30,022 nucleotides of DNA, taken from Ophryocystis elektroscirrha. Its lineage: Eukaryota; Apicomplexa; Conoidasida; Neogregarinorida; Ophryocystidae. A program made the translations under genes and the position numbers. Shown in pieces: positions 2,542 through 29,723 of this stretch (the stretch's first letter is position 1; each line of letters begins with the position of its first letter). Location: assembly GCA_030141585.1 (NCBI GenBank), contig JAQIFP010000071.1:1-30022 (forward strand), given 5' to 3'. The notes below the pieces were generated by a model, which was not told the DNA's origin, did not search any database, and worked only from the letters and a program-made list of their open reading frames with translations.

Positions 2542-4883
2542 GTGTAAATGTATATATAAGTGTGTATATATAAGTATCTATATGTATATATATTAATTTA
2601 TATGTATATATTTGTATATATATGTAAATGTATATATAAGTGTGTATATATAAGTATCTATATGTATATATATGTATTTGAATGCAAATATATATATATA
2701 TATATGTTTGTTTATATATATAAGTATATATGTGAATATTTATATATGTATTTATACCTGTGTATATATATATGTATATATTTGTATATATATGTATTTG
2801 AATGTATATATGTGTATTCATATATCTGAAATTTATGCATACCATGACTTATTATTTATATTTTCTACATTTAACGTATATATGTTCACGCGAAAGGTTA
2901 AACGTATATAATTTGAACTATTTGATAAATAATAATCATTACAGTATTTTCAAGCAACGAAACCATATAATCATAATTTAGGAGATTTGAAAGCTTCAGA
3001 TCTTTTGGAAATGCTTTATGGCAGCCTGTTCTGTGTGTTAAAACATCTTCAATAGTAATGTCGTCTTTATTGTATCGAATAAAGCCATCACACCAGTTGC
3101 AAAGCAGTTCACCTAAACTTATTTTTTTTTGCTCGACCAATTGCAGAACAGCTGATCCTAAAATAGCATTAGCTATTGTTCCCACACAAAATAAGCTATC
3201 TTTCGCAATCTAAAAGACACAAAAAAAAAACTGAAGCTTGATGTAATTAGCTAATTACATTTGTAACTAATAGTAATATATTGATAGTATAATGAATAAA
3301 TTATAATTATGCAATAAATGTAGTGTATGTATATATATACACACATATATATAATAATATTAACTTCATTTGTGAATCTCTGGTTAGCCTTATATAGGAT
3401 TTTATTTTAAAGATATTTTTGCAGATACAGCAATAATTATTATAATATAAAATATGTCAAAAATTGTAATTTATTTATTTTAATTAATTTATTATTTAAT
3501 AATCATATATATTATATTTTATTAAAATAATATTTTTATATATTTTAACGTACAGGTTTAGTATTGGTGGGGCCCATACGACCAACACATGTATCTACTA
3601 TTAGTTTATTGTTTTTATACACTGCAACTTGACAACCAAGTATTAAGTCCATTTTTTCGTATAGATGATGTATGTATTTACTAATTCTCCATTCAACATA
3701 TCTGAATATTAAATGCCACTAAAAATATTTTACGAGCGCATTTTTTCCTCTGGGTATTGAACATATATATTTAGACTGGGAGGTATATAACTTTCCATTA
3801 AGCACTGACGGGCTTTTGCTACAAGTATTTTTAAGAACGGAATTGAAGCCTATATGTTTACATGAAATGCTACCAGATTTACGTTTAATTGCAAGCAAAG
3901 TCCATGTAAAAGCGATACTACTCGTACAAAAAAAATAATGTCCTTTGGCCAATCATCAATAGGGTTACCTATAATCGATAATTATGCATTAAATAAATAA
4001 ATACAAAATTATCATTCAACTATATAGACTAATTATTTTAGGTAAAAACATTTTATATATACCCACGCTTAATTTTATGTTATTTTAAGCTGTATACATA
4101 TATACATGTATATATATATATATACATATAAATATATATTTATATATATTTATATATATGTATTTATATATATAAATTCATATATAAATTTATATATATA
4201 TATGTGTATCTATTTTATTAATTATATATATATATATATATATATAAATTCCTTCGTGTGTTGATATATAGTATTATTGATAGAATTATTATGTTGTATT
4301 AATATTTTTTAGATTACGAAATGAAGCACGCACGTTGCATTATATCTTCTTTAGTGACCTTAGACTCACTGAGAGCCGCAGTGACATTCTGTTTCTCACT
4401 AGATACAACATAATCTTCTCCAGTATCCTACTGAATAAAAAAAACTGAAAATATTTACTCGAAAAAACCCTATACGTAATGCGTCCATGTAGATTTCTGG
4501 GTCAATAGCAAAACCCTTTTTAAATTTAAACCCCATATCCTCAAAAGCTTCCATTAAGCCCATAACGTTCATATCCGCGATGCAGCAAACTGCATTAGAA
4601 AATGCCAAGCGTCCAGAATTGGTAAATGTTTTCACTAATCCCCAGTCCAGCAGTACTGGCCAGTAATCCCCAGAAGGTTGTTTCTGTACAAGTATGTTTC
4701 CTGGGTGTGGATCCCCTAATTGCAATTATATACTCAATATACACAAATACATCAATATAGATATATTTACTAGTTACCGTTTATTTTATAATAAATAGAT
4801 AAGAATCATGATTTATTTTATACATACATTATAATCAATAAGTACTATGCTAAATTTATTTTCACTGTAATATACATATTTTT

Positions 4884-4922
<39 letters not shown>

Positions 4923-5490
4923 TTTTTTTTTTTTAATTATAATATGTATATACATAATATTTTAGATAAAAAAAGTTACCATTAAAAAGACCATCGATAT
5001 GTATTTGGTAAGCAAAAGCTTCTCCTAGTTTTAGCATCAAAGAATTGACATCTATTTCGCATTCCTATGGAACAATCAAGTTTTTGTTTCTATACCTTCA
5101 GCTTTTCAATATTTGTTATTTTCATTCCTTCTATGTATTCCATAACCAACACACGTTTAGTTGTATACTCTGGGTAGCAACGAGGTATTATTACTTGAAG
5201 GTTGGCTTCCTAAAAACCATACTGTAAACAAGGTACAATTTAGGGAACTTTATACAAGTCTTATCCATGTAAATGATACATTTTTAGCATTTTATAAATA
5301 AATTTAAATGTCATATATACAATCGTGATATATATATATATATAATTGGGTATATAAGGGTATATAACCTAATTTACGCAAAAAAATGTAATATAATGTA
5401 TGATTGCCAAATGTAGTATATACTTATATTATATGGATAATATTATATGTGTTACATGTAACTTTCTCTATATATATGTATATAAATTTA

Positions 5491-5541
<51 letters not shown>

Positions 5542-26860: not shown

Positions 26861-27096
26861 GATATTCCATACATCGACTTTTTTTTTTTACTTTTTTTTT
26901 TATTAATCAATAATCACTTATAATATAAATTTGTCTATATTGTATACATAGTGAATTTGCTTGTAACTATAATAACTTTTTTATATATTATTACAGGTAT
27001 AGATACTAAATGAGCTACATTATTATCTAATAAGTTGTTTTTTTTTTTTTATACATTCTATAAAAAAAATTAAGTGATTTATTATACATTTAATGT
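26861..27096. other. intergenic spacer between the NOL12-like and RAD17-like genes
   Basis: These 236 bp are AT-rich with several poly-T runs (for example 26880-26902 and 27039-27050). No coding frame or clear RNA gene is visible. Confidence 0.4.
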
Positions 27097-28527
27097 ATGC
27101 CGCGTCGTCCTAAGCATTTAAATGCAAACAAGATAACTGATTTTTTAATTCCGACGCAAAAATTTTCACCGCCAACTGTGAATTTAAACTCGAAACCTTT
27201 CTGGGCTGAAAATTACGCCCCAAGTTCATCTGTAAGTGTTTCATTTATGAATGAGTAATCATTCACGTACAAATATGAATGTAAATTTTTATCAAGGAAA
27301 GTTAGCCAAATATTTTTAATTCGATAAGTTTCTGAATATTTTTTTGAACAATATTGAACATATTAGAATTATTCATTTGGCGGGTGTTGATATAATATAT
27401 ATAAAATACAAAAAAAATCATAATTAATTTTTCTAATAAGTTTAATTACATTTTTTTGTTGGTTCTCATAGAATTTTGATAAAATGATTGATAATACTGA
27501 CGAATGCATTGCACTTTTTTTTAGAGTGAACTTTTAATAACAAAACAAAAACAAGACTTGCTTCGAGATGCACTTAGATGCAATAGACTGATAGTTGTGG
27601 AAGGTCCTTCGGGGTGTGGAAAAACTTCTGCTATTCGAGTACTTTCAAAGGAAGCCAAATATCTTTTACACGAGTGGGACTTGCCACCCCACTCTCTTCA
27701 TTTAAACAGTTTAAGCGATGTGTTTTTTCGATTTCTCACTACCAGGTACTTATTGTAAAGTATTTTATTAAGGCTCTAGGTCCTCTACGTTACTAAATGA
27801 AGAGAATCAGATTTCGAACGAAACTTCAGAGTAATTGAGGCTAAAATTAATATAAACAAACAAAATAGTTCATACCTAGGTTTTTGATATAGTTCAATAT
27901 AAAAATATTTATAAATATACATAAAATATACATAAAATATACATAAACCTATATATATATATATATATAAATAATAAGGGTTCATATATAAATAAACATG
28001 TATTCTCATTTATGTATAAGTATGTCTGTAGAGCTAATTGTGTATATATTTATGTTATGTTATCATTTGACTTTTTAAACACAAACTTGGTTCGTACAAT
28101 AATAATAATAATAATTCTTAACATATAATAAAAATATGTATATTTAGGCATTATATAAATAGTGTTTTCAGTGGTTTGCCGATAAAAAATATTCGTCTAA
28201 TCAAAGTATATATAAAGCAACGTTATAATTTGCTACATAGGACATACCTTTACATCTATTCACTCTCCAGTCAAATTTATTCTACCGAAAATTCCAACAG
28301 TACATCAAGTTCTTAATTTCAGGTACTTATGAAGTATAACGTGGATATAAATCATTTTTTTTTGCCTCTGTTTAACAAGTTTATATACTTATACATAAAT
28401 AAAAATACACATTAATATACACATAAATATGCATAAATACAAGTGAATAAAATATAATTTTATGCGTATATATATTAGTAATTATAAATAACTACACATA
28501 TATATACACATATATACATATATATAC

Positions 28528-28558
<31 letters not shown>

Positions 28559-29723
28559 CATATATATACATATATATACATATATATACATATATATACA
28601 TATACATAAATAACTACACATATATATACATATATATACATATATATACATATATATACATATATATACATATATATACATATATATACATATATATACA
28701 TATATATACATAAATATATATAAATATATACATAATTAGATATAATTACATGTACATACATATACTTATATATATAAAATTAAGTTTATATACGTATTTA
28801 TATAAATTTTAATTCAGCTCCTTCAAATTACAACCTTCCAACTATAGTGTTTGTGATAAACAGTAAAGATCTGAAGTATCTCCGAAAAGTTATTCCGTCA
28901 GACGCGGAGTATATAAAATACATACAGTAAATAAATTATATAAAATTATGCTACTTTGAAGTTCAGTTTTACTTCAGCAACTCCCAAATGTTTATCTAAA
29001 GCTATATCTTTGGTATTGTGTAAAGAAGGTAAAAGTGTAAATAAGAAATGGTATTTCATATAGGTTACAGTCTAGCCAGATCAAATGAATTAGCAAAATT
29101 GTTTTTAGTAATTATTTTTCGTAGCATAATTTTCTAGAATCAATGGATTTCAACAGATATAAGAGAGATAATGATTCTTTTGGAGTTCTTTTTTATACCC
29201 GATTTAAAGAATGATATAAGCTTCAATTTCAAATTAACACACCGTAATACTATTTTTACATGTATTTTAGATTCACTATGATTTGTAAATTTGAAATATA
29301 TATACATATACATATATGTATATATACACATATATGTATATATACTGACATATATATATATACACATATATAAATACATATATATATATATATGAATTAT
29401 GTTAATTTGTATAATTTACGACATTGACGCACATATTCATGGTTATATGTTCATTTTGTATGTTAAAATTTATATATACTATAGAGCAAAATAAGACAAT
29501 ATTGTTGCAATTATTACGAGCTTAATATAAAATTATGATATCAACGATTAATATGTGTATATACAAAAAACATAAAGCAAGTTTTATATATTTTTTTTTG
29601 TTAGATAAACGAAATATTTTCTGGGATCTTTTTCATGTATGTGGCAAAATTTTATGGAATAAACGTCTTCCTCGTAATGACGATTCAGAGGCTTTGTTTC
29701 ATCAAAGCGTGTTTGAATTAAAG
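27097..29723 (+). CDS. RAD17: RAD17/Rad24-like checkpoint clamp loader ATPase (3' end outside window)
   Basis: Nine exons (304 codons so far): 27097-27231, 27525-27745, 28172-28205, 28241-28322, 28818-28926, 28967-29028, 29064-29107, 29138-29243, 29605-29723, continuing past the window. RAD17 replaces RFC1 in an alternative clamp loader that puts the 9-1-1 clamp on damaged DNA. Evidence includes [10 protein letters not shown] near residue 36 (family W..KY.P), an RFC-like K..DLL..AL segment, and the P-loop [16 protein letters not shown] sits at the Walker B place (human RAD17 LVEDLP), followed by [22 protein letters not shown] (sensor 1-like), [24 protein letters not shown] (family GDIRSAI..L) and [12 protein letters not shown]. 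The distance between Walker A and B is shorter than in human RAD17. Four introns are 30-40 nt. The 30-nt intron 29108-29137 and the donor at 29244 are the least certain joins. Confidence 0.85.
28490..28735. repeat. 10-bp TATATATACA tandem repeat in RAD17 intron 4
   Basis: The decamer TATATATACA repeats almost perfectly from about 28552 to 28600 and again about nine times from 28618 to 28710, separated by TACATAAATAACTACACA. The unit is the reverse complement of the decamer in the kinase intron 3 repeat. It lies in the 495-nt intron 28323-28817. Confidence 0.85.
29244..29604 (+). other. 361-nt intron 8 of RAD17 with TATA/CATA microsatellite
   Basis: About 29296-29393 is an ATATATACATATACA-type simple repeat. 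The rest is AT-rich with no protein-like frame. Confidence 0.6.

Follow-up and report, generated by a model that had tools for sequence, protein, structure and literature searches.

Two length classes of predicted GT-AG introns, one of 28-41 nt, in a neogregarine contig and in sampled DNA of the same genome

Apicomplexan and ciliate genomes in which very short introns occur beside longer ones have been described, and the closest cases are summarized here from portions of the published accounts. In Porospora cf. gigantea, a marine gregarine, a class of 25-30 bp constitutes 71-72% of the introns and longer ones stand beside it (PMC9250747). Tiny introns of 18-21 nt are preponderant in the apicomplexan Babesia microti, where they are supported by RNA-seq (PMC5082761). 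The AT-rich introns of another apicomplexan, Theileria parva, are bimodal at 55 and 80 bp (PMC2612703). The ciliates Oxytricha and Stylonychia have classes of <43, 44-65 and >66 bp in one genome (PMC5014332). Here we describe the introns of contig JAQIFP010000071.1 of Ophryocystis elektroscirrha, a stretch of 30,022 nucleotides (nt) that was analysed over its full length and is called the window below, together with 196 kb from elsewhere in the 8.0 Mb genome. With a probability of roughly 0.85, the predicted introns are ordinary GT-AG spliceosomal introns of two length classes, one tight at 28-41 nt (peak 31-35 nt) and one broad from about 60 nt upwards, that are handled by one U2-type spliceosome. 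An earlier sequence-only reading of the window had reported the two size classes. As far as DNA can tell, that observation is confirmed, and the interpretation attached to it is partly supported. It had also held that in the few protists known to have introns this short they are not mixed one-to-one with long microsatellite-filled ones; that tiny and longer introns coexist is, as far as the cited parts go, already described for Porospora, Gregarina niphandrodes, Oxytricha and Stylonychia.

The 29 tiny segments proposed for the window (Table 1) all begin with GT and end with AG on the strand of their own gene. The donor is GTA in 28 of them, in agreement with the description of that start as nearly universal, and GTTT at 25477-25509. 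Nine rebuilt gene models hold these introns and 29 long ones; the earlier count of long introns stands and its upper length of 1020 nt does not, the range being 69 to 1056 nt. Homology backs 15 of the 29 tiny introns: four each in the ABC1 and proteasome beta genes, three in the DHHC gene, two in the Fcf2-like gene and one each in the galactokinase-family and Nop25-like genes. A junction was counted as backed only if it was gap-free within five residues in the best structure alignments, judged by eye. Solved structures were searched with five proteins of the window and with four more drawn from 70 gene-finder genes, nine in all. For the ABC1 junctions gaplessness within ±8 was computed in 11 of 12 aligned relatives (P0154 left out) that had been hand-picked from 120 listed. 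Two long ABC1 introns (630 and 460 nt) are gapless against the solved structure yet score 0/11 among the relatives, because other rows of the alignment carry insertions there.

The gene finder is a semi-Markov model trained solely on DNA of this genome, with a smooth intron length prior that has no modes. It recovered 16 of the 29 tiny introns exactly and missed 13, including all six of the Fcf2-like gene. In all, 23 are backed by homology or by the gene finder, and six (7280, 18455, 18868, 19129, 19259 and 28927) have frame and consensus as their basis. With 25477-25509 spliced out, the Nop25 Pfam match becomes longer and its score climbs to 44.2 bits, compared with 33.4 when the segment is left in. 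Support for the introns at 18739 and 18609 is weaker, as both lie within a single Fcf2 match (residues 126-219, 94 residues against 90 positions) for which the junction-level alignment was not seen. The solved-structure match of the Rad17-like protein is too short to reach any tiny junction.

Both classes recur outside the window. Among 48 homology-backed introns from the window and beyond, 25 measure 31-40 nt, one 42 nt and 22 at least 61 nt, with none at 43-60 nt. A PP2A-like gene contributes introns of 61, 69, 37, 61, 171, 36, 32 and 32 nt, the eIF4A-III gene contributes 203, 90, 68, 42 and 33 nt, and a kinesin gene five tiny and one long intron, after exclusion of junctions near gaps or beyond the match. 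The gap reported from the window at 41-68 nt is narrower outside it, where homology-backed introns of 42, 61, 61 and 68 nt place it at about 43-60 nt.

The gene finder was run on 226 kb from three contigs (the window, C5 and C1), which is <3% of the genome. Before any splice-site training 57 of its 198 introns were 30-39 nt long. After training it called 468 introns, of which 15 are <28 nt, 274 are 28-41 nt, 20 are 42-59 nt and 159 are at least 60 nt. A flank-score filter for high-confidence introns proved too strict (26 of 468 retained) and was not used. Decoy dinucleotide pairs treated alike (TG-GA, GA-AC, AC-GA, GA-TG and AG-GT) yielded 30, 19, 23, 25 and 36 segments at 28-41 nt and 24-32 at 42-59 nt. 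The tiny peak is therefore far above chance and the trough lies below the decoys. A length histogram had been proposed beforehand; in these 226 kb it bears out the peak and the trough, and its long bins from 80 nt upwards do not rise above the decoys. The sole long bin that does is 60-79 nt (40 against 18-29), and the long class is supported mainly by its homology-backed members. Tiny introns form the majority beside the longer ones. Both classes are present in 38 of the 52 genes with at least three introns, and the mix varies among genes beyond chance (permutation p 0.0002). First introns show no class difference (p 0.26).

The sequence-only reading had called for the splice sites of each class to be compared separately. 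Donors and acceptors are nearly shared: tiny and long introns have GTA at 0.90 and 0.91, YAG at 0.89 and 0.94, A at donor position +4 at 0.63 and 0.69, and C at acceptor position -3 at 0.25 and 0.27; A at +3 (0.90 and 0.91), A at +4 and C at -3 are all without a difference. The classes do differ in uridine content at -12 to -4, which is 0.46 in tiny and 0.57 in long introns (p about 1e-8), while their interiors are alike (0.43 and 0.41). A conserved A at -6 is absent from the tiny introns (A at 0.33); the highest upstream A frequency is 0.48, at -13. The branch search gave weak enrichments without a fixed position; ACTATT, for example, occurs in 13 of the 274 tiny introns, where shuffles give 3.8.

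Components of the spliceosome were recovered from the genome. Intact U6 (103.4 bits), the PROCN domain of Prp8 (766 bits), SF1-HH (88.7 bits) and RED_N (64.7 bits) all exceed their cut-offs. The best U2AF65 exon scores 101.5 bits over the C-terminal part of the model, which we take to be the UHM, and falls below the full-length cut-off of 310.3. This search also gave matches in two of the 14 control genomes, so a match can come from RRM proteins at large; the U2AF65-like protein model has RRM domains by Pfam. Its gene (L021 265-2075, plus strand) is itself modelled with ten introns, each of 30-35 nt. A loss of U2AF or SF1, which had been suggested as a possible correlate, is not seen: SF1 passes its cut-off, and for U2AF65 one exon gives a strong match that stays under the full-length threshold. 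RED deserves mention, as the short introns of human cells are reported, in part of the relevant account, to require Smu1 and RED (PMC6692369).

These results are best explained by one U2-type spliceosome that would remove both classes. The tiny segments behave as introns, the peak extends beyond the window, and the earlier inference that the same cell must splice both holds. Tiny introns would be recognized by intron definition, with donor and acceptor paired directly at near-minimal spacing and with neither a strong U-rich tract nor a fixed branch position. Long introns would use near-identical donor and acceptor letters with a U-rich tract adjoining the acceptor. In the sampled DNA the tiny class is locked in length and long introns swell with the local load of AT repeats; the trough may mark a limit of recognition geometry. 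The sequence itself shows that the introns are real, within what homology and frame can tell, and it shows the two classes, the shared sites, the difference in U-tract, the regional swelling and the core factors.

Several results weigh against this explanation. From 80 nt upwards the long introns of the gene finder fall within or below the decoy range: 35 at 80-119 nt (decoys 27-42), 32 at 120-199 nt (25-43), 37 at 200-499 nt (29-66) and 15 at 500 nt or more (20-75). Decoys overstate the noise, because their ends stand in place of true introns. A model-free scan for fusions of open reading frames gave a modest excess at 28-41 nt, with 25.6 per nt of length compared with 15.5-23.2 for six decoys. 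The introns on which the two classes were compared come from the gene finder, and its splice-site model had been trained on tiny and long introns jointly. G at +5 is less frequent in tiny than in long introns (0.25 vs 0.37, p 0.012, uncorrected, the lone such result of eight single-position tests). A k-mer and position search found no positioned branch motif in either class. No U2 small nuclear RNA was recovered by Rfam or by two patterns, and three places with one mismatch were without a U2 match.

The alternative that survives best is that tiny and long introns differ in their dependence on U2AF, which we consider rather unlikely. The weaker U-tract of the tiny introns and their lower +5G would fit it, and a precedent is described in human in part of PMC8363638. 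The sole G-patch match (C30:48233) looks unlike SPF45, being a 147-residue single-exon model with no second domain by eye; that search proceeded exon by exon, is weak for multi-exon genes, and scored one candidate. A bolder version is that a single splice-site grammar serves both length classes in this lineage and that the U-tract is the main mark by which they are distinguished, the long introns needing U2AF and the length-locked ones of 28-41 nt being spliced with neither U2AF nor a fixed branch position. We regard this as doubtful. If it were true, length itself would be a recognition signal, and lengths of 43-60 nt would be forbidden because they fall between the two ways of assembling the spliceosome.

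It is also unlikely that the long introns are tiny ones inflated by insertion of AT repeats, in which case there would be one population and the trough would reflect insertion size. The comparison of the three sampled contigs bears on this. Median lengths of tiny introns are 32 nt in the window, 34 nt on C5 and 33 nt on C1 (p 0.80 when C1 is compared with the window and C5), whereas those of long introns are 379, 432.5 and 100.5 nt (p about 3e-16). Simple repeats cover 10.7% of the long introns in the window and 13.7% on C5 against 2.6% on C1, and the strong arrays of the window lie within long introns (e.g. 8259-8827, 17871-18170 and 28468-28776), as insertion would predict. However, 89 of the 112 long introns on C1 are free of simple repeats under the rule used and the class median there is still 100.5 nt. 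Repeats also do not account for the difference in U-tract.

The ratio of tiny to long introns is 243:112 on 180 kb of C1. For the window the gene finder gives 19:29 and the curated models 29:29 (p 0.007 against C1, the curated set being compared with gene-finder counts). The one-to-one mixture with microsatellite-filled long introns that had been reported holds in the window and not on C1, and is therefore a local picture; regional swelling of the long introns makes the window appear more extreme than the rest. Within C1 the ratio is uneven, from 92:9 in the first 60 kb to 41:37 at 140-180 kb. GC content is about 25% in the window and on C5 and about 29% on C1. A mixture of organisms behind the contig difference was considered and is unlikely for the window, the codon usage of which correlates with three parts of C1 at r 0.98-0.99. 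That of C5, from 7 kb of coding sequence, agrees less (r 0.92-0.93), so that a mixture is less improbable there.

That the tiny segments are in-frame protein inserts, frameshift errors or segments eliminated at the DNA level is highly improbable given their GTA...YAG ends, homologues without an insert at the counted junctions, and the occurrence of just 3 stopless segments of 3n length in 274, although the gene finder disfavours such segments and tends to call them exon, as at 25477. Shuffled sequences gave 11.9 of them; a deficit of this kind would match the selection on 3n length and in-frame stops that marks ciliate ultra-short introns, subject to the same bias.

Coordinates of the genes, introns and other features of the window are collected in Table 1.

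Table 1. Predicted genes, their tiny and long introns, and other features of the window. Exact, missed and alternative calls refer to the gene finder; gapless counts refer to aligned relatives.
Feature	Coordinates	Strand	Remarks
ABC1 kinase-beta-lactamase fusion gene	609..7148	-	long introns 163-630 nt
ABC1 long introns	6938-7100, 5981-6610, 5210-5669, 4716-4979, 3969-4333, 3210-3553, 2386-2942, 1056-1341	
tiny intron, 32 nt (ABC1)	6751..6782	-	gapless 11/11; exact
tiny intron, 31 nt (ABC1)	5065..5095	-	gapless 10/11; exact
tiny intron, 31 nt (ABC1)	4428..4458	-	gapless 10/11; exact
tiny intron, 33 nt (ABC1)	3850..3882	-	gapless 11/11; 12-nt piece called instead
tiny intron, 32 nt (ABC1)	3702..3733	-	exact; variable in relatives, gapless 0/11, not counted as homology-backed
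DHHC palmitoyltransferase gene	7271..10325	+	start codon uncertain; long introns 7617-7883, 8191-8962, 9224-9684, 9756-10108 (267-772 nt)
tiny intron, 36 nt (DHHC)	7280..7315	+	frame and GT-AG only; called 7288-7315
tiny intron, 31 nt (DHHC)	7463..7493	+	ZDHHC9 homology; exact
tiny intron, 34 nt (DHHC)	7923..7956	+	exact; close to gaps in ZDHHC9 alignment
tiny intron, 40 nt (DHHC)	8036..8075	+	junction gapless against ZDHHC9; called 8076-8112
tiny intron, 32 nt (DHHC)	9015..9046	+	ZDHHC9 homology; missed
tiny intron, 33 nt (DHHC)	10169..10201	+	exact
UCH gene	10454-11119		intronless
proteasome beta (PSMB2-like) gene	11463..13092	+	long introns 11550-11618 (69 nt), 11786-12299, 12479-12745
tiny intron, 32 nt (proteasome beta)	12340..12371	+	gapless homology; missed
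tiny intron, 32 nt (proteasome beta)	12795..12826	+	gapless homology; exact
tiny intron, 33 nt (proteasome beta)	12875..12907	+	gapless homology; exact
tiny intron, 32 nt (proteasome beta)	12968..12999	+	gapless homology; exact
protein kinase gene	13396..18374	+	start codon uncertain; exclusively long introns 15563-16016, 16462-16847, 17734-18245
Fcf2-like gene	18383..19427	-	single long intron 18947-19047 (101 nt)
tiny intron, 31 nt (Fcf2-like)	18455..18485	-	frame and GT-AG only
tiny intron, 36 nt (Fcf2-like)	18609..18644	-	within Fcf2 domain match; missed
tiny intron, 34 nt (Fcf2-like)	18739..18772	-	within the Fcf2 domain match shared with 18609; missed
tiny intron, 31 nt (Fcf2-like)	18868..18898	-	frame and GT-AG only
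tiny intron, 33 nt (Fcf2-like)	19129..19161	-	frame and GT-AG only
tiny intron, 35 nt (Fcf2-like)	19259..19293	-	frame and GT-AG only
tRNA gene	19738-19821	-	Rfam 58.7 bits
gene without Pfam match, hydrophobic protein start	19884..21829	-	long introns 21048-21365, 20075-20851
tiny intron, 33 nt (protein with N-terminal hydrophobic stretch)	19940..19972	-	exact
tiny intron, 32 nt (protein with N-terminal hydrophobic stretch)	21538..21569	-	exact
galactokinase / GalNAc kinase-like gene	22180..25380	+	long introns 22648-23282, 23727-24576, 25052-25227
tiny intron, 31 nt (galactokinase family)	24732..24762	+	gapless homology; exact
Nop25-like gene	25421..26860	+	long intron 25616-26671 (1056 nt)
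tiny intron, 33 nt (Nop25-like)	25477..25509	+	donor GTTTGT; 3n, stopless; read as exon
Rad17-like gene	27097..29741	+	3' end uncertain; long introns 27232-27524, 27746-28147, 28323-28817, 29244-29604
tiny intron, 35 nt (Rad17-like)	28206..28240	+	exact
tiny intron, 40 nt (Rad17-like)	28927..28966	+	frame and GT-AG; called 28909-28966
tiny intron, 35 nt (Rad17-like)	29029..29063	+	exact
tiny intron, 30 nt (Rad17-like)	29108..29137	+	exact
AT-rich tandem arrays	8259-8827, 17871-18170, 22873-23217, 23989-24527, 26109-26418, 28468-28776		each within a modelled long intron

The combination of an ABC1 (COQ8-like) kinase with a serine beta-lactamase-like domain is listed for many apicomplexans and plants. 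A galactokinase-family gene occurs in this apicomplexan, and its best solved-structure match is N-acetylgalactosamine kinase. The UCH protein carries a Peptidase_C12 domain by Pfam, while a search of the protein library at E 0.001 gave it no homologue. The tRNA gene was missed by ARAGORN; on visual inspection it is a tRNA-Tyr whose intron, about 13 nt long, adjoins the anticodon.

The position of the organism was examined with EF-2, encoded on C1. In the protein library its closest relatives are metagenome proteins (87-82%), followed by Babesia microti (81%), Vitrella (79%) and Cardiosporidium (78%). In a quick tree of 41 rows it forms a clade with six further sequences (support 100). That clade, Cryptosporidium and a set made up of P0012, P0017 and P0025 meet at a fork with support 81, in an order that the tree leaves open. 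P0012 and P0017 bear the accession prefixes of Siedleckia nematoides and Selenidium pygospionis, as given in part of a published account (PMC10304595). The highest identity to a named species, that to B. microti, is unlike the placement in the tree. This one protein gives moderate support for an apicomplexan on the gregarine/Cryptosporidium side.

A further apicomplexan lineage is thus added to those with a class of tiny introns. Introns of about 30 nt probe the lower size limit of a spliceosomal substrate. There is also a consequence for annotation: a gene caller whose shortest permitted intron exceeds 41 nt would lose over half of the present count (274 of 468), so the setting matters for the annotation of uncultured protists. 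No description of this genome was found among the matches listed in open-licence literature on introns.

Comparison with the described systems places this genome among known mixtures and sets it apart in some features; the values quoted for other organisms come from parts of the cited accounts. The modes of T. parva both exceed the tiny class found here and are far closer together (PMC2612703), and the tiny introns of B. microti are shorter than the 28-41 nt seen here (PMC5082761). Oxytricha and Stylonychia are distant relatives, and their shortest introns have the strongest splice sites (PMC5014332), whereas the signals of the tiny introns here are equal to those of the long ones or slightly weaker. 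Nearest in numbers is the gregarine Gregarina niphandrodes, with a mode of 37 bp and a median of 95 bp (56-145), which implies short and longer introns together; it differs in GC content (53.8%) and genome size (13.9 Mb) (PMC9250747). Porospora cf. gigantea is likewise an apicomplexan, with a genome of about 9 Mb and a tiny class in the majority beside longer introns. Its mode is 28, against 31-35 here, and its GC content 54%, against about 25-30% in the stretches sampled here (PMC9250747). The splice sites of its small introns follow a consensus specific to that class, and A is conserved at -6 (PMC9250747). The tiny introns described here differ from that class in the two features tested, having neither the A at -6 nor clearly class-specific sites, which suggests that a tiny-intron class need not bring with it a fixed branch A at -6 or splice sites of its own.

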